NCBI GenBank assembly: GCA_020740775.1
Contig: JAHEWK010000035.1
Location: 124,001-188,000 of the forward strand
DNA length: 64,000 bases
Direction of reading: 5' to 3'
DNA from: Ilyonectria destructans
Taxonomy: Eukaryota; Ascomycota; Sordariomycetes; Hypocreales; Nectriaceae
Part shown: in pieces, positions 30,237 to 37,179 of the stretch
Numbering within the stretch: the first letter of the stretch is position 1
Layout of the letters: each line of letters opens with the position of its first letter
Notes under the pieces: model-generated
What the model was told of the DNA's origin: nothing
Databases searched by the model: none
Seen by the model: only the letters and a program-made list of their open reading frames with translations
Made by a program: the position numbers and the translations under genes

Positions 30237-32033
30237 CTGTAACCATAAAATCAGTCCTCGGGCTCTGGAGCGGTGGCCAGACATGTCCATCCATATTCAA
30301 GGCGAGATCCGGCTGGCAGACAAACTTCTCACGCTAATGGAATAAATGATGGTAGCATAAGTTATTTAATTAAGGAACGAACCAAACAAGCTTGGAGGGA
30401 TGTAACATGGTAAGAATCTGGGCAAGGGCGAAGAGGGGAGCTCTGAGAAAGAACTTGCTTGGGACCGCATTCTGATTTTGTGTCGCAAATCTGGATAGGG
30501 AATCAATGGAGAAAGTAGCGATAGGGTAGAGAGGCAATGGCATAGCGACGTATGTTGTTGTAAACTCGGAAGCGACCTACAACGAAATGAAATGATCCCT
30601 GGGGAGTTGTTATAAACCGGAAAAGGGCTCTAGCGCTGGACTGAGGGCGGACACTACCGGGTTGTTGTCGTAGGCGAGAAAAGGAAGGAGACGATCCCAA
30701 CAGATTGGGCAGCTGACATCGTGTATCTCATCATTTCCAAAGTTACCAGGCAAGGAGTCAGTAATGGTCCGTGTCGTTCGAGGTGGGCGAGAACAAAGGA
30801 GCAGCTGCATCGTGAAAAGTCAAGCGATGGAGTGACATCACAAATGGCACTTTCTGCGGGGTACAGGCTGGCGATCAATTCCACCTCCACCTCAACCATT
30901 TCAATATTGTTGAAGTGGAAGGCCCCTGTCCTGAGGGTCTCTGTCAGTCCCAAAGCATGATTGGTTGACCAGAACAAAGTGTGATATGGTCATTGCAGTG
31001 AAGTCGACACTCCAAGCGTCATGATCGTCTCGATTACGTAGCATATGTACCGGCTGGCGGTGCGGCTAGTTGATAAACGGGAAATTGAGGAGGAGGAAAG
31101 AGAGCTAAATAGCGGCTCATACGGTCTACACACGGCAATCGGCGCTTAGCGGTGAGGCTAAGCTCGGTGTACGAAGGTATCGCGAGTGGCAGGAAGGCGT
31201 TGGGGTACAGGTTTTTTATCCAGGGCCACGCCCACGGTTTCCCCCTGTATTTAGAACCTTAGATAGACTGGCATGCCCGCGGGCGAAGGCCATGTAATAT
31301 TAATATTACTACAACAACTACTACTGCTGCTGCTGCGGATAACACAGCGGCATGCACACAAAGCAGCTGGGCGAGTGTGGTAAGAGCTGGACGGCTGAAC
31401 GAGGAGCAGCAGGCAAGCAGCTGGCGTGAAAAGGAGGGATCGTTCGCAGGTAGCGAGTCTCAGCGGGCGGCGTGCAGTAAAAACCAGAGCGGCCCGATGC
31501 GACTGGCCTGTACTCTCGTTCAGCCGGTGTTTTATCCGAGGGCTATCAACCACCAGCCAAAAGCAAAGTAAAAAGGGGCAGCTCAGCCCTCCACCTCCCT
31601 GAGCATCCTTTACAATCTCGACAACAGGAGTCGGAAATGAGGGGTCGTCAGTGGAGTTGTGATCATCATGCCGATGATTTCGGCGCACTACAATGTAGAC
31701 GTCAGCATTGTGGCGGCCACTCGATTACTTCTTCGCATAAGGCGTTGGGTCGCCCTCGCGAAATTATCATTCGTGCTATCACGTTTCTTAGGCGAAGAGG
31801 TAAGCTCGATCATAGTTGCTCCGGGGTATGTAGCAAGTATTGAGCAGGCTAGACTCTGAGTCGGCGGCCTCGCTTGGTGGGAGATGTTGAGACTTCTGTC
31901 GTGCTGGCAAAGGTCGAATCTATAAGGCGGAGCTGTGTGCGCTTGCTGCCAAGGAGGCCGAGGAGGTCGTTGAGGCCCAGGTGCGCGCCGTTGAACCAAG
32001 AGACGAAACCACCAAGTGGCGAGAATGACCAAT
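30237..32033. other. Gene-poor stretch
   Basis: Several frames of 60-145 codons exist on both strands but start mostly at non-ATG codons and lack recognisable motifs. It contains the second copy of the ~100-bp duplication (31343-31450) and an ACT/TGC trinucleotide run near 31310-31335. The last bases, CCAAT at 32029-32033, are the left target duplication of the following transposon. Confidence 0.4.
31343..31450. repeat. Imperfect ~100-bp duplication (copy 2)
   Basis: Matches 23451-23560 in the same orientation; shared core AGCAGCTGGGCGAGTGTGGT and the end GATCGTTCGCAGG. Confidence 0.6.
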
Positions 32034-32068
32034 TACGGAAGTCCATAGGGGGCACAGTTCCAAAACCC
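32034..32068 (+). repeat. Left terminal inverted repeat, 35 bp
   Basis: Perfect reverse complement of 37140-37174. Preceded by the target duplication CCAAT. Confidence 0.95.
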
Positions 32069-32555
32069 AATTTGTGGTTGTTTTTGGGTAGGGGCACACC
32101 CACCGTGCGGCCCCGTTTGAAGCATAATCGCTCCCTCCAATCGCTTAGTCATCCAAAATCAACTTGCATTCATGGCCAGCTAGTCACGTGCGCACGCCTA
32201 ATTCTCCTCACAACAGGCTACGAGGGTCTCTTTCCTTTCTTCTTCCTTCTTCAACTACAATTTGAAGGTAAGAATAGCCTCCTTTTGCATCAAAATAACG
32301 CCACCGCCATGCGCTTTACGTGGGCGTTCAATCAGCTACGATATCGCATGGTTACGTGCTACATTTTGATATGCATTTTGCCCATATTGGCGGACCCACG
32401 CGCGCCTACGATTTTCCGCAGTACGTACTGACCCAGGCTAACCGTTACCCAGGCAGGAACCCCACAAGCCTTCCAGACGCGATGCATCTCCGTACGCGCC
32501 CGTACGTAAGCAGATTCGACACACTTCGGCTTCGTACGACTACGGATTGCCCATC

Positions 32556-33382
32556 ATGGCCGGCGCTCGCAAGAAGGGTGACAAGGACAAGGAGGCAGAG
32601 AAGGAGAGAGAGCGACTCGAAAAGGAAAAAGAGAAACAGGACAATCTGCTTCGTAAGGCTGCTATCGACCTCCTACGTGAGGATTTTGGAGAGGAAAAAT
32701 TCGGCCAGCTGCCTAAGGAAGTGCTGGAGATCGATACTTATACGTTCACATACAAGGGCGAACAGCCCACTGAGAACCCGGATCTTACCGTTTGGGCTCT
32801 GATGAATGCTCTGAAGGGTAGCAGCAAGAAGGGTTTTGCTGCCATTGACTCCACCAAGGTTTGTACCCGCAGATCAGCGTACTAGTTCGTACTAACTCGT
32901 ATCAGGAAGTACGTCCGCTTGAGCTCAACTACAAGACCGACAGCAAGTCTATGAAGAAGACCGCCCCTGTCCTCAACTTTCGCGGCAGTCAGAATTGTGA
33001 TACTATGCTCCGCCACCTGTACGGTGACGAACGTGAGGATACGGAGCGCTGCAACAAGTGTACGGGCCAAAACGGCTCCTTCAACAAGTGTATTGTCTCT
33101 GACACTCACCTGCATGCTTGTGCCAATTGCGACTGGAACCGTTCTAGCCAGGCATGTTCTCTCGGTGAGTACTTACACTTACGCACCTATATACAGTACT
33201 AATTAGTAGTAGGCAAGCAAAGCACCAAGCGCAAGGCCGATGACTTCGACTCTGATAGTGACAGTACGGACCCGATGGAGGACTTTGACCGCAAGACGCT
33301 CTTGAAGATGTCTAAGTTCTTTAAGGATGCTGCTGACAAGAAGAAGAGAAAGAAGGGGGCCACCCCTTTGAGGAAAGACTGA
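32556..33382 (+). CDS. DUF3716-like zinc-binding protein of the transposon
   Basis: Three exons (32556-32858, 32906-33164, 33213-33382) give 243 residues. The introns are 47 and 48 nt; the first has an ideal ACTAAC branch site, the second ends TAGTAG. The N-terminus is a charged helix (KKGDKDKEAEKERERLEKEKEK). The middle has CNKCTGQNGSFNKCI and CANCDWNRSSQACS, the Cys pattern of the fungal DUF3716 family, likely one or two zinc sites. The C-terminus is acidic then basic (DSDSDSTDPMED, KKKRKKG), a probable nuclear localisation signal. DUF3716 domains have no known function; DNA or protein binding in transposition is inferred from context. The start is the ATG at 32556; a TTG nine bases upstream is in frame but unnecessary. 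A 5'-leader intron starting at GTAAGAATAG (about 32268) is possible. Confidence 0.82.
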
Positions 33383-34087
33383 GGTATATCACCCTTTACA
33401 TGAGAATACGAGCTCGTACCGACCCTTTTCCTAGTCTACTTAGTCATTTCCTACCACCCCTGTTCTGAGATTCTAAGGCAAAATTTCTTTTTGTAATCTA
33501 AGCCAAAATATAAACGAAACTTTTGCGTACGACTGCAAGAGGCATACAGAGCATTATAATACCTAATTGCTAGCTAGGGCCTGAAATGAAATTTACTTTA
33601 GTCTTTAATTGTTTTTAATGTGAGGAAGATGTAATGTATTTGCCTTAAAATCTGGGGAGTATTGCTGGGTAGAGTCTGGTTGTATATTGTTGAATTGGAG
33701 GCATGGAACACCAGGGCTCCAGGATGTCACGTGTGGAATAGGGAGGCCTTCGGGCCCCACTTATAGGCCCGGGGTGTAGTCCAAAGCAGACAGCCCCTTA
33801 CAACAACAACAGATACAGAATACACACACAGGTTCAAGGTCATCAAATGGTCACATAAGCAATCCAACATATATTGTATGATTACTAACGACCACCAGTA
33901 GCTTTGCCCCTGAATTGCCTAATCAGGCTCTAGCTCAAAAATTAAGATTACGCTCTCGTACGGCCACGTACGCGGCCATGCGAAAAAGATTTCCAGCCCC
34001 CGATTGAATCCAAAGCTCGAATTTTCGATTTTTAGTACGAGCCCGTACTTCTCGTCACGGCCTCATACGAGCCCGCAAGTCAACGCA
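33383..34087. promoter_or_regulatory. Spacer with CGTACG sites upstream of the integrase gene
   Basis: No gene. CGTACG occurs at 33526, 33957 and 33967, with further GTACGAGCCCGTAC-type sequence at 34035-34047, just ahead of the integrase start. The rest is AT-rich. Confidence 0.45.
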
Positions 34088-35711
34088 ATGGGCCGCCCTT
34101 CGATTGACTTATCTTCATTTCGCATACAAATTCAACAATGGAAGAATGATGACCATCTCACATACGATCAAATCGTCACGCGCCTTAATGAGCATTTCCA
34201 CGTCATAGTGGGACGTACGACCGTGTATCGCAGCCTCAAAAGTTGGAATATCTCGGTCAAACAATACACCAAAGACTCAGAACACCTTCGTCAGCATATT
34301 AAAGATTTATTCTTTAATAAGGTCTTGAATGATCACTTTATGCTTCTGAAGCTTCATTCTGACGGCTTTATTATCACGAAGACTGGACTTGAACGCATAC
34401 GCCGGGACCTTGGGCTTTGGCGCCGTCAAGACCCCGAGCAGATATCAGAAAGCCTACGCGAATTGCGCCGTTTCTTTGAAAGCGAGTCCGAACAGAGCAC
34501 TAAGCTTAAAGACTTTGGCCGTACGTATCTCTACGCAAAGGTCCGTCGAGCTGGACTCGTACTCAGTCGCCGGGCGCTGTACGAAGGCTTTCGTGAGTTT
34601 TATCCTGGAAGTATTACCGAACGTTGGAATACGATGCGATATCGCCGAGGTGGATGGACAGCACCTGGCCCTGACTTCATGTGGTCTCTTGATGCCTATG
34701 ATAAATTGAAGGCTTGGGGCTTTGAGATTTACGCTTCAATTGACGTATACTCACGGTTTATTACGTGGTTTTATATTGGCATATCAGCCAATACGTCACG
34801 GAGTGTTGTTGCGCAATACCTTCACGTACTTTCAGAACGCCAAACAATGCCCAATATCATCCGTTCAGACCGCGGCCGAGAGACAATTCTAATGGCTGGA
34901 GCACATTTCTACCTTTCGAAAGAACGCGTGCGTGTACGGGATAGTATTCGGCAAGACGTGCGCTTCCAAGACTGTTGGGCCTACGGCAAGAGCACGAATA
35001 ATCAGAAGATTGAAAGCTGGTGGCTTCGGCTAAGTCGAGGCAGGGCTAAGTTCTGGCGGGTAAGTATAGACTGATATCTTTATTTATGATGGCGTATTGA
35101 TGTATTCTTAGGAGTATTTCTCTGAAATCACGGGACTTTCATATTTCTCGGATGATTCCGTACCCGACCGTATTGCGATGCTTTATATCTTTATGCCAAT
35201 TTTGAGAGAGGAATTCGCCGACTTCGTACACATGTGGAATGTGCATTACATTCGTAAACAGCGCAATAGGCCACATGTTGTTCCCGGGCAACCATGGAAC
35301 CTTTACTTTCAGCCCGAGGCCCGACAAGTCAGAAGCTGGGCAGAGGTCATCCCTCAGGGACGACTAGATACACTTCAGAATATCTTCGCAGAAGACCATA
35401 TTGACCTTGACGCTTACTTACCTGAGCATACGATAGCTATTTGCGATCGCATACTCCAAAGCCGTCAAGACTACCCGCAAGATCCAGTAGAACGGCCACA
35501 TCTTTCTACATATCTCTTCTTACGGCAGCATTTGCAGCAGTATATTATCAATCAAGAATCACCTGCTCTAGAGCTACTATCAACACCTACTGGTGGACTG
35601 GACCGCGTACGAGATCATTTGGCAGCGAATGATATTGATGCCACTACGCTTGATAGGCTCAAAAATGAGATTGGAGAGGAGATTGATGATGTTGACGAGC
35701 AGGAGGACTAA
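34088..35711 (+). CDS. DDE integrase-core transposase
   Basis: Two exons (34088-35059 and 35112-35711) around a 52-nt GTAAGT...TTCTTAG intron give 523 residues. The N-terminus carries a helix-turn-helix-like segment (YDQIVTRLNEHFHVIVGRTTVYRSLKSW). The catalytic core shows the first Asp in FMWSLDAYDKLKAWGFEIYA, further IDVYSRFITWFYIGIS, the second Asp in IIRSDRGRET, and the Glu in STNNQKIESWW, 48 residues after the second Asp. After the intron come PDRIAMLYIFMPILREEFADFV, MWNVHYIRKQRNRPHVVPGQPW and a short acidic tail. This is the eukaryotic integrase-core family found in many fungi and some animals (retroviral-integrase fold). It should cut the inverted-repeat ends and join them to target DNA. 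All three catalytic residues are present and the frame is clean, so activity is plausible. Confidence 0.9.
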
Positions 35712-35756
35712 CCATATAACCAAATACGTACATGATTGAAGCATTTCGCACTCAAA

Positions 35757-36893
35757 TTAATCTATATTCTTATTCTTCCCCCTCCCAGCTCGAAAAGGAA
35801 GCTTCTTCTCAGGTGAACCCCCCTGTGTTTCTGACTGTTCGATATCGCTCGTAAAAGGATCACTCAGTGCGGCATCGTTCGAAGCTGTATCTGTGACTGT
35901 AATACACCCCGCGATAACCTCATCCTTGACTTCAGTCTTGATGGGGCTTCGAGCTTCGAGCTTCATTGGTACCAGAGATAGCACTAGGGCTTTGAATTCG
36001 TCCTTACTGGTTGATACGCGCCCTGACTTTGCCGTACGTGGAACCTTGGGCTTGATAGGACTTGGCGTTGACATATCCGAGTCCATATCAGAAGGCCCGT
36101 GATCAATAGCCCTTTTGCGGCCACGTGCGGCTCTCAACGGCCTCTGACAGTCGTCATCAGGTCGGGGTCCCTCGTTGAAGAGCCAAAAAGTGAGATTGGC
36201 TGTATCACGTTGCTTTGTAACGGTGATATTCCCCTGGCTGAATAGATCTCCTAGCGTAACGGTATTGTACGCTCCACTAGGGAAGTATACGGGTCCAGAA
36301 GTAGCGCCAACTGTTGATACGGAATGAACGACTTGCCACTCTTTCTCCTTGAGGCGTTCATCGCATTGCTCGACGATGAATCTGATCATTGAGCTATGGG
36401 ATGAAAACTTACGCCCTAGTACGACTTCAACAGATCCAGTACGCTTTCCAGCGTGCCGAATTCCCTTGTACACTGGAATCGTGATGCCTGGGATGCTATC
36501 ATCGATATAGCCGTCACCAATCCAGAAGATTGCTGATAGTTCGACAACGACTGGGTCCTTTCGGATCCGTGTGGCTGCGATACTGCTCTGACGGTTCTGT
36601 ACGGCCATCATAGTCGAAGCCTGATAGGTGTCAGGCATTGGCACAGTTGTAGAGGAAGTAGTGATTATGCCCCGTGAGGCAATGTTCTTTGTCGTAGAGG
36701 TCCGTTGGGTTAAAGGTGAATCAACGGTCAGGTCGATCGAAATAGGGGCTGCATTGTGTAGAGCCGTAGGGAGTCGTTGAGCGCAATGCGGGCAATAAAC
36801 AGCCCCCGGAAATTTCGTACGGATATCCACATGACGAGTACGTTGTTGCGCTGATGGACAGTACTCTGTTTGAGGAGGTGAAGCGGGCTCCAT
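35757..36893 (-). CDS. Third protein of the transposon, unknown function, SUMO-related motifs
   Basis: A single-exon 378-residue protein from ATG 36893, convergent with the integrase gene and ending 46 bases from it. It has an N-terminal CPHC pair, then SIDLTVDSP, which fits a SUMO-interacting motif. The middle region (VVVELSAIFWIGDGYIDDSIPGITIPV to LFSQGNITVTKQRDTANLTFWLFNEG) looks like a folded beta-rich domain that I do not recognise. The tail is basic and Ser/Pro-rich with PIKTEVKDEV, containing two psi-K-x-E sumoylation consensus sites. Three CGTACG palindromes lie 44-69 bases upstream of the start. A longer frame to 37031 begins with GTG and crosses these sites, so the ATG is preferred. 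It may aid targeting, regulation or host interaction; this is inference. Confidence 0.8.
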   Translation of the reverse strand: MEPASPPQTEYCPSAQQRTRHVDIRTKFPGAVYCPHCAQRLPTALHNAAPISIDLTVDSPLTQRTSTTKNIASRGIITTSSTTVPMPDTYQASTMMAVQNRQSSIAATRIRKDPVVVELSAIFWIGDGYIDDSIPGITIPVYKGIRHAGKRTGSVEVVLGRKFSSHSSMIRFIVEQCDERLKEKEWQVVHSVSTVGATSGPVYFPSGAYNTVTLGDLFSQGNITVTKQRDTANLTFWLFNEGPRPDDDCQRPLRAARGRKRAIDHGPSDMDSDMSTPSPIKPKVPRTAKSGRVSTSKDEFKALVLSLVPMKLEARSPIKTEVKDEVIAGCITVTDTASNDAALSDPFTSDIEQSETQGGSPEKKLPFRAGRGKNKNID

Positions 36894-36936
36894 ACTGAAA
36901 GAAGGTGGAAAGTTGATAGAGAGCAGCGAAAGTGTG

Positions 36937-36962
36937 CGTACGAGTTCGTACGAACTCGTACG
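36937..36962. promoter_or_regulatory. Array of three CGTACG palindromes
   Basis: CGTACG at 36937, 36947 and 36957, at exact 10-bp spacing, about one helical turn; the middle one is the centre of the longer palindrome CGAGTTCGTACGAACTCG. The spacing suggests cooperative binding on one DNA face. The array lies just upstream of the third gene and about 180 bases from the right inverted repeat. Confidence 0.55.
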
Positions 36963-37139
36963 CAACCTTATACCCCTTTCACCATATACTAAATTGGCCC
37001 GGCAATGGGAAATGGATGGTCCCTTGTACACCGGTAAAGCAATTTTCTCATTGAAATTACGATACGGGCTCGTATGCGGCTAAACAGAAGGATAAATACA
37101 CATTGGGGTTAGTCTAGTGATGAAAAAAAAGAGGGCCGG

Positions 37140-37174
37140 GGGTTTTGGAACTGTGCCCCCTATGGACTTCCGTA
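37140..37174 (-). repeat. Right terminal inverted repeat, 35 bp
   Basis: Perfect reverse complement of the left repeat at 32034-32068; followed by the target duplication CCAAT. Confidence 0.95.
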
Positions 37175-37179
37175 CCAAT

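Follow-up and report, generated by a model that had tools for sequence, protein, structure and literature searches.

The stretch of DNA analysed here, called the window, comprises 64,000 nt of the genome of Ilyonectria destructans, and it raises the question of which kind of transposable element occupies its positions 32034-37174 and what the two genes that accompany the transposase contribute to it. The window together with a search of the whole genome (71.7 Mb, 74 contigs) points to a complete, recently mobile cut-and-paste DNA transposon of the IS3EU superfamily, moved by its transposase (protein B) and carrying two conserved accessory proteins (A and C), a reading to which we give a probability of about 0.85. 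Judged by its sequence, the element would be best filed under IS3EU as a new family, referred to below as family 1.

The element is 5,141 bp long, begins with TACGG and ends with CCGTA. Its 35-nt terminal inverted repeats (TIRs) show 100% complementarity, and CCAAT lies immediately outside each end. When both window flanks were joined through a single CCAAT (194 bases) and compared with the same genome, three related loci with one CCAAT and no insert were recovered: C19:305123-305278, which matches unbroken at 99% over 155 of the 194 bases, junction included, C11:1139790-1139924 (87%) and C22:410871-411045 (86%). These unoccupied copies of the target fix both boundaries and the 5-bp duplication exactly and show that the element is an insertion. 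The host sequence itself has at least three relatives in the genome, of 86-99% identity (C19:305100-305300, C22:410850-411060 and C11:1139770-1139940). Also, part of the element used as a query hits many genomic places, the 20-base end of the element is found at 46 genomic sites with up to three mismatches, versus 6 for a reversed control, and the bipartite end pattern TACGGNNG-N20-AWAACCC at 122 places, versus 5 for its reversed control. The perfect repeats and the CCAAT duplication of an earlier reading made from the sequence alone (the original prediction) are thus upheld.

A total of 20 genomic stretches was examined, two of them with a single family-1 end and one (L058) with neither. Two-ended family-1 elements number 11, the window copy included. 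The copy at C29:369619-374759 shows zero differences from the window copy over 5,141 bp and has a duplication of its own, GTTAG in place of CCAAT; the remaining copies differ from the window copy at 9 to 177 positions. A 182-bp insert between genes A and B is present in the window copy and the C29 copy and missing in the other nine and, since the duplications of the two carriers differ, the insert-loaded copy itself moved afterwards. This insert is probably a solo long terminal repeat, and sequences related to it (76-98% identity) recur at numerous genomic positions, some of them closely spaced. The identical C29 copy bears out the view of a complete and young element, whereas the description of the element as intact, with three uninterrupted genes, stands for the genes, all three of which are open, and needs qualifying for the body, in which the insert is nested. 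The features are collected in Table 1.

Table 1. Features of the element and its target site, in window positions
Feature	Position	Strand	Basis
Left target-site duplication, CCAAT	32029..32033		Single CCAAT in three unoccupied related sites
Left 35-bp TIR, TACGGAAG-N20-AAAACCC	32034..32068	+	TIR pairing
CGTAC/GTACG motif, 37 distinct places	32421..36962		51 matches; 14 CGTACG palindromes count on both strands
Gene A, 243-aa DUF3716 zinc-type protein	32556..33382; exons 32556-32858, 32906-33164, 33213-33382	+	PF12511, E 1.2e-10
Nested 182-bp insert (TG..CA, TATAT duplications), A-B interval; not belonging to the element proper	33688..33869		Copy alignment
Gene B, 523-aa transposase	34088..35711; exons 34088-35059, 35112-35711	+	PF24764 (rva_4), E 5.1e-21
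Gene C, 378-aa protein, intronless	35757..36893	-	No Pfam match; dN/dS 0.32 against family 2
Right 35-bp TIR	37140..37174	-	TIR pairing
Right target-site duplication, CCAAT	37175..37179		Adjoins right end; single CCAAT in unoccupied sites

Protein B has an integrase core, as anticipated, and besides the Pfam family of Table 1 it gives a match to rve (7.2e-5) that falls below the rve cut-off, together with weak helix-turn-helix matches at its N-terminus. For exon 1, the nearest NCBIfam model is an IS3 transposase (E 1.1e-5, far below the cut-off of the model), and a PDB sequence search with the same exon gave nothing convincing, the best match being TnsB at 0.032. When B was aligned with 24 relatives from databases and another family of the same genome, the DDE residue D202 proved invariant, and D261 and E309 were kept in at least 90%, with 58 residues between the first two and 47 between the last two. 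The first 200 residues contain zero cysteines, so that B is without a finger of the retroviral HHCC type. The ratio of nonsynonymous to synonymous substitution rates (dN/dS) is 0.13 for the whole of B against the copies C9 and C15 and 0.19 for exon 1 between families 1 and 2, and it is 0.33-0.34 for gene A against C15 and C9. The DUF3716 assignment of gene A was likewise foreseen; an NCBIfam search with protein A was without match. The introns, two in A and one in B, were placed from splice signals and reading frame. A tree of the transposase core, built from the families of this genome and database hits only, has Fusarium proteins nested among the element families, which indicates that the transposase lineage extends beyond this fungus.

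Besides family 1, four families were read end to end. Family 2 is represented by five two-ended elements (C25, C30, C33 and, twice, C37; 4,522-4,726 bp), and families 4 (L059, 5,195 bp), 5 (L060, C35:23200-29200, 5,288 bp) and 8 (C24:346244-351646, 5,403 bp) by one element each, which brings the two-ended elements to 19. In all five families A, B and C are present within matching ends, alike in order and orientation, even though identity of the transposases to B is as low as 42% (family 8; 62% for family 4). Their ends have TACGG and A(A/T)AACCC in common at identical spacing, and family 5 has two DUF3716 genes, which flank the pair of transposase and C on its two sides. Pfam scores for DUF3716 were obtained in families 1, 5 and 8 (E 9.4e-12 in family 8, where the transposase gives rva_4 at E 3.9e-12 and C was located by tblastn, best E 1e-9), and gene A of families 2 and 4 was assigned by similarity to the A of the window. 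The further copies with the gene trio and ends that the original prediction looked for are therefore there, and the objection it raised against itself, that the three genes might never occur together elsewhere, is contradicted by these five families. A degenerate family was also seen, at C11 and C61.

Protein C matches nothing in NCBIfam, and a PDB sequence search with it gave nothing up to E 10. Single-sequence and profile searches returned 3 and 5 matches, respectively, and all three named ones are from Ilyonectria robusta, the best with 97% identity; this search requires shared 5-residue words, so the absence of C outside Ilyonectria is weak evidence. The protein shows a C12-H21-C34-C37 arrangement, the sequence IDLTVDSP at positions 53-60, and a Lys/Glu-rich tail with MKLE, IKTE and VKDE. 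Among seven aligned C sequences (two near-identical, one truncated), the three cysteines, the histidine and DLT are kept in all seven and DLTxDSP in six. We take the (I/V)DLT core with its acidic neighbours to resemble a SUMO-interacting motif and the psi-K-x-E sites of the tail to be of the sumoylation type. These sites number 3, 4 and 4 in the C tails of families 1, 2 and 4, more than in composition shuffles (p 0.0001, <0.0001 and 0.0003), and there is no such excess in family 5 (1 site, p 0.31). The C of family 8 keeps the C-H-C-C residues and is without the DLT motif. Hence, a sequence resembling a SUMO-interacting motif occurs in the C of four of the five families, and the SUMO reading is not general. 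In a literature search of limited scope, no paper was found that links such a motif with the transposases of DNA transposons, and DUF3716 was not mentioned in any paper found. As for selection, the dN/dS of C against family 2 (Table 1) and against the copies C9 and C15 (0.30) indicates that C is a real protein under purifying selection.

The superfamily was assessed against published accounts, each available in part. In these, IS3EU elements have TA..TA ends, usually 6-bp duplications and no HHCC finger, and the rust families have TAYGG..CCRTA ends and TIRs of more than 30 bp (PMC10045372, PMC12730594). The TACGG..CCGTA ends of the present element fit both forms, its perfect TIRs of 35 bp fit the length, and its IS3/integrase-like DDE transposase without an N-terminal HHCC finger fits the protein type; this likeness includes GingerRoot within the superfamily. 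Moreover, the rust IS3EU elements of the TET+ kind are described with an extra gene opposite to the transposase, as C is here, although that gene encodes an alpha-kinase and their set consists of TET/JBP and alpha-kinase genes instead of the DUF3716 protein and C. Styx of Zymoseptoria, for which an IS3EU origin was proposed, differs as described in being 7,927 bp long, in having four genes, GATA, CCHC and DUF3577 genes among them, and in making 6-bp duplications (PMC10853768); going by description, it is the closest described relative by gene content among those compared. The claim that no superfamily could be named is thus overturned on ends, TIRs and transposase type, although 5-bp duplications outnumber those of 6 bp.

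That prevalence of 5-bp duplications, shared by TDD-4/5 of the Ginger2 group (PMC2836005), and a gene set unmatched in the literature compared would be the grounds for placing the element in another integrase-type superfamily (Ginger1, Ginger2 or Polinton) or in a wholly new one, which we regard as highly improbable. As far as their account goes, Ginger1 and Ginger2 are also integrase-type cut-and-paste transposons, and the Ulp1 protease domain of some Ginger1 transposases may likewise connect elements of this type with the SUMO pathway, but both groups have TGTNR ends, an H2C2 finger, 4-bp duplications (5 bp in TDD-4/5) and, in Ginger1, a single protein (PMC2836005). The TACGG ends and the absence of Cys from the first 200 residues of B, which leaves no H2C2 finger, exclude membership in either group. 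Polintons are large elements with genes for a protein-primed DNA polymerase and capsid proteins; in this case, the element measures 5.1 kb and its three proteins match no Polinton-type Pfam family. The gene set of a DUF3716 protein with C was not met in the IS3EU literature, which was covered in part, and we found no description of this pair or of the CGTAC array discussed below. An undescribed system had been proposed, and on the literature covered this would hold for the gene set and not for the superfamily, which already has a name. The second objection that the original prediction raised against itself, an already described superfamily with these genes, is accordingly borne out by half.

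Several observations weigh against the IS3EU placement and against the part given to C. The placement was derived from published descriptions of ends, TIRs, duplications and transposase. Only 8 of the 19 two-ended elements have a duplication of their own (six of 5 bp, two of 6 bp); six of the other 11 pair their flanks with those of another copy, and the last five show neither (C15, the family 5 element, two elements of family 2, and C9, the flanks of which have only GTA in common, beside a repeat of GTA). With exchanged flanks counted, matched pairs amount to nine of 5 bp and four of 6 bp, against the usual 6 bp of IS3EU. For C, dN/dS comes near 1 in the least diverged pairs (0.996 for C13 and 0.777 for C16a, with few changes), synonymous sites are saturated between families more distant than family 2, and a 1-bp frameshift is common to 5 of the 11 copies (C16a, C16b, C16c, C20 and C38a). 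The frameshifted C16a and C20 are identical and lie at different places, which implies that an intact C tail is not required in cis.

The same frameshift would suit A and C being mere cargo without part in the life cycle of the element, and so would the other extras carried by IS3EU-type elements in the accounts compared, TET/JBP and alpha-kinase genes in rusts and the GATA, CCHC and DUF3577 genes of Styx. Nonetheless, cargo is a very unlikely explanation, given that A, B and C have been retained together across the five families in a common order and orientation while their transposases diverged, and that both A and C have dN/dS of about 0.3 against C9 and C15. For the preferred reading of an IS3EU transposon with accessory proteins, the protein family of B, the ends and the duplications suggest that B would bind the 35-bp ends, cut the element out and reinsert it with a 5- or 6-bp stagger. 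A and C would most likely bind the DNA or chromatin of the element, help its movement or expression, and act in trans, and they might instead or also resist silencing; the CGTAC array may be a binding platform for a protein of the element or of the host.

This array is pronounced in three families. Against 300 shuffles, distinct places of CGTAC number 37 in family 1 (mean 6.6, maximum 14), 26 in family 2 (mean 6.2, maximum 17) and 44 in family 8 (mean 10.8, maximum 19). Counted as 5-mer matches on either strand, the observed and dinucleotide-expected values are 51 and 7.3, 38 and 7.1, and 62 and 12.9 for these families, with z-scores of 16.1, 11.5 and 13.6, whereas 40 shuffles gave top values of 4.5-5.0 across all 5-mers. 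Four control stretches of 5.2 kb from the window hold no comparable 5-mer (z at most 4.7). CGTAC is not enriched in family 4 (2 places, with a shuffle mean of 3.8 and a maximum of 10) or in family 5 (7 places, with 3.3 and 8), and family 5 shows instead a weak excess of CCTGTA (z 6.7 versus 5.6). Something therefore favours CGTAC in three of the five families, while families 4 and 5 are without enrichment despite having the same genes.

A possible explanation, which we would still place a little short of even odds, is that these are extra putative binding sites for the transposase or for transcription factors, which would make them ordinary internal cis elements that play no part in silencing. 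The motif is denser in non-coding DNA (15.3 matches per kb) than in coding sequence (7.3 per kb), the ends of the element start with TACGG, which overlaps CGTAC, and repeated subterminal binding sites are common in many DNA transposons; however, the sites cross the middle of the element and its coding sequence, with no clustering near the ends. The VANDAL elements of Arabidopsis, which are Mutator-like and belong to a different superfamily, offer an alternative by analogy only. In the part of the account available, they combine accessory VANC proteins with a short family-specific internal motif, which lies in non-coding tandem repeats, and VANC binding and loss of methylation were shown experimentally, whereas the present array is known from sequence (PMC5735166). 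By this analogy, CGTAC could be the docking site for A and/or C, which would coat the element and prevent or reverse silencing. Synonymous-codon shuffles are in line with this in that codon order falls short of accounting for the sites in family 1 (12 observed versus 5.3 shuffled in B, 9 versus 2.8 in C, and a marginal 4 versus 1.4 in A, 0.027) and in the C of family 2 (9 versus 2.2). Also, 30 family-1 places fall in alignment columns without gaps, and family 2 retains 14 of them, compared with a baseline of 0.217 for 5-mers; there is zero CGTAC in 1.94 kb of the left flank of family 8, the right flank of which was read for 154 bp only. Several findings oppose a docking role. The enrichment is missing from families 4 and 5, which do carry A, B and C; family 8 shares the motif although its transposase is more divergent than that of family 4, and it is also rich in CGAACG (29 versus 4.9); no excess over codon shuffles is seen in B exon 1 of family 2 (2 versus 2.05) or, for family 4, in B exon 1 and C; and 20 of the 37 places in the window element are coding, whereas VANC motifs favour non-coding parts. 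On balance, an anti-silencing role of the VANC kind is rather unlikely, and plain cis elements are the likelier reading of the array. Less probable again, and to be taken as speculation, is a full self-recognition system in which the CGTAC motif, dispersed through all of the element and its coding parts, would be read by A or C as a zinc protein, C would tie the complex to host SUMO by way of its putative SUMO-interacting motif and sumoylation-type sites so that the element resists silencing or repeat-induced point mutation (RIP), and motif and reader would change together between families.

With respect to RIP, the window copy departs at 9 positions from the majority base of the columns in the 11-copy alignment, 3 of these departures being C>T/G>A, and the stated absence of RIP signs fits this copy. 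It does not extend to the family, for which the suggested escape from RIP is not supported: each of C13, C16a, C16c, C20 and C38a has 29-50 differences, with C>T/G>A accounting for 23-40 and CpA/TpG as the context in 17-27 of the latter. The most divergent copies, C9 (172 differences, 55 C>T/G>A, 18 at CpA/TpG) and C15 (116, 48 and 11), have no RIP-like bias. The C18 and C16a types are set apart by 57 sites; there, C9 and C15 carry the C18 state and C16a has C>T or G>A at 36, which indicates that the RIP-like marks in C16a are derived. To judge from these base changes, light RIP-like mutation has touched family 1. Moreover, the RIP-like changes and the C frameshift are common to C16a, C16c and C20, which differ from one another at no more than one position, and a RIP-marked copy therefore spread later; the B of C16a has no stop codon.

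A comparison of flanks reveals five left flanks in family 1 that match the right flank of another copy, three by 5 bp and two by 6 bp, whereas 20,000 flank shuffles gave a mean of 0.15 chance matches and a maximum of 3. The exchange is reciprocal in one case (C16:888425 and C38:51876), and the pairing is one-sided for C13 and C18. The candidate copies are those at C16:552723 (L042), C16:702417 (L043), C16:888425 (L044), C13:853685 (L040), C18:176106 (L045) and C38:51876 (L048). Mosaic bodies were also found: in C13, one sequence type reaches as far as alignment site 2408 and the other runs from 2660; C16b changes type between sites 3832 and 3946, two single sites excepted; and C38a changes between 3249 and 3330 and reverts between 3832 and 3946. 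The paired flanks and mosaic bodies make it appear that copies exchanged flanks by crossovers inside the element, or that the assembly is at fault.

Other relatives in the genome have fewer of the genes. At L063 (C29:351900-355400) and 17 like places on many contigs, there is a single-frame transposase with 36% identity to B, and the 18 frames, of 548 codons, have nearly equal scores, so this family may be a recent burst. The 3.5-kb stretch at L063, which does not reach both ends, shows the transposase as the only element gene, and its 8 CGTAC places are within shuffles; ends of the TACGGTCG..ATAACCC type lie near members of this family. In addition, the first parts of A-like and C-like genes face each other at eleven loci (L061, at C33:118400-120000, and ten like it). 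At L061, the one locus read, no transposase lies between these parts and the stretch examined yielded no matching ends; such loci are possibly internally deleted, non-autonomous relatives.

Finally, an element that looked undescribed now has a superfamily name, and in a single fungus, five families have retained the two accessory genes alongside one transposase lineage. Near-identical copies appear as places of exchange between chromosome segments, in line with the rearrangements described for Styx in the partial account available (PMC10853768), unless the assembly is faulty. Whether DNA transposons of fungi mark themselves against silencing in the way that VANDALs do in plants can be put to the test through the motif array, and the self-recognition system, if true, would have arisen independently of VANC as its counterpart in fungi.

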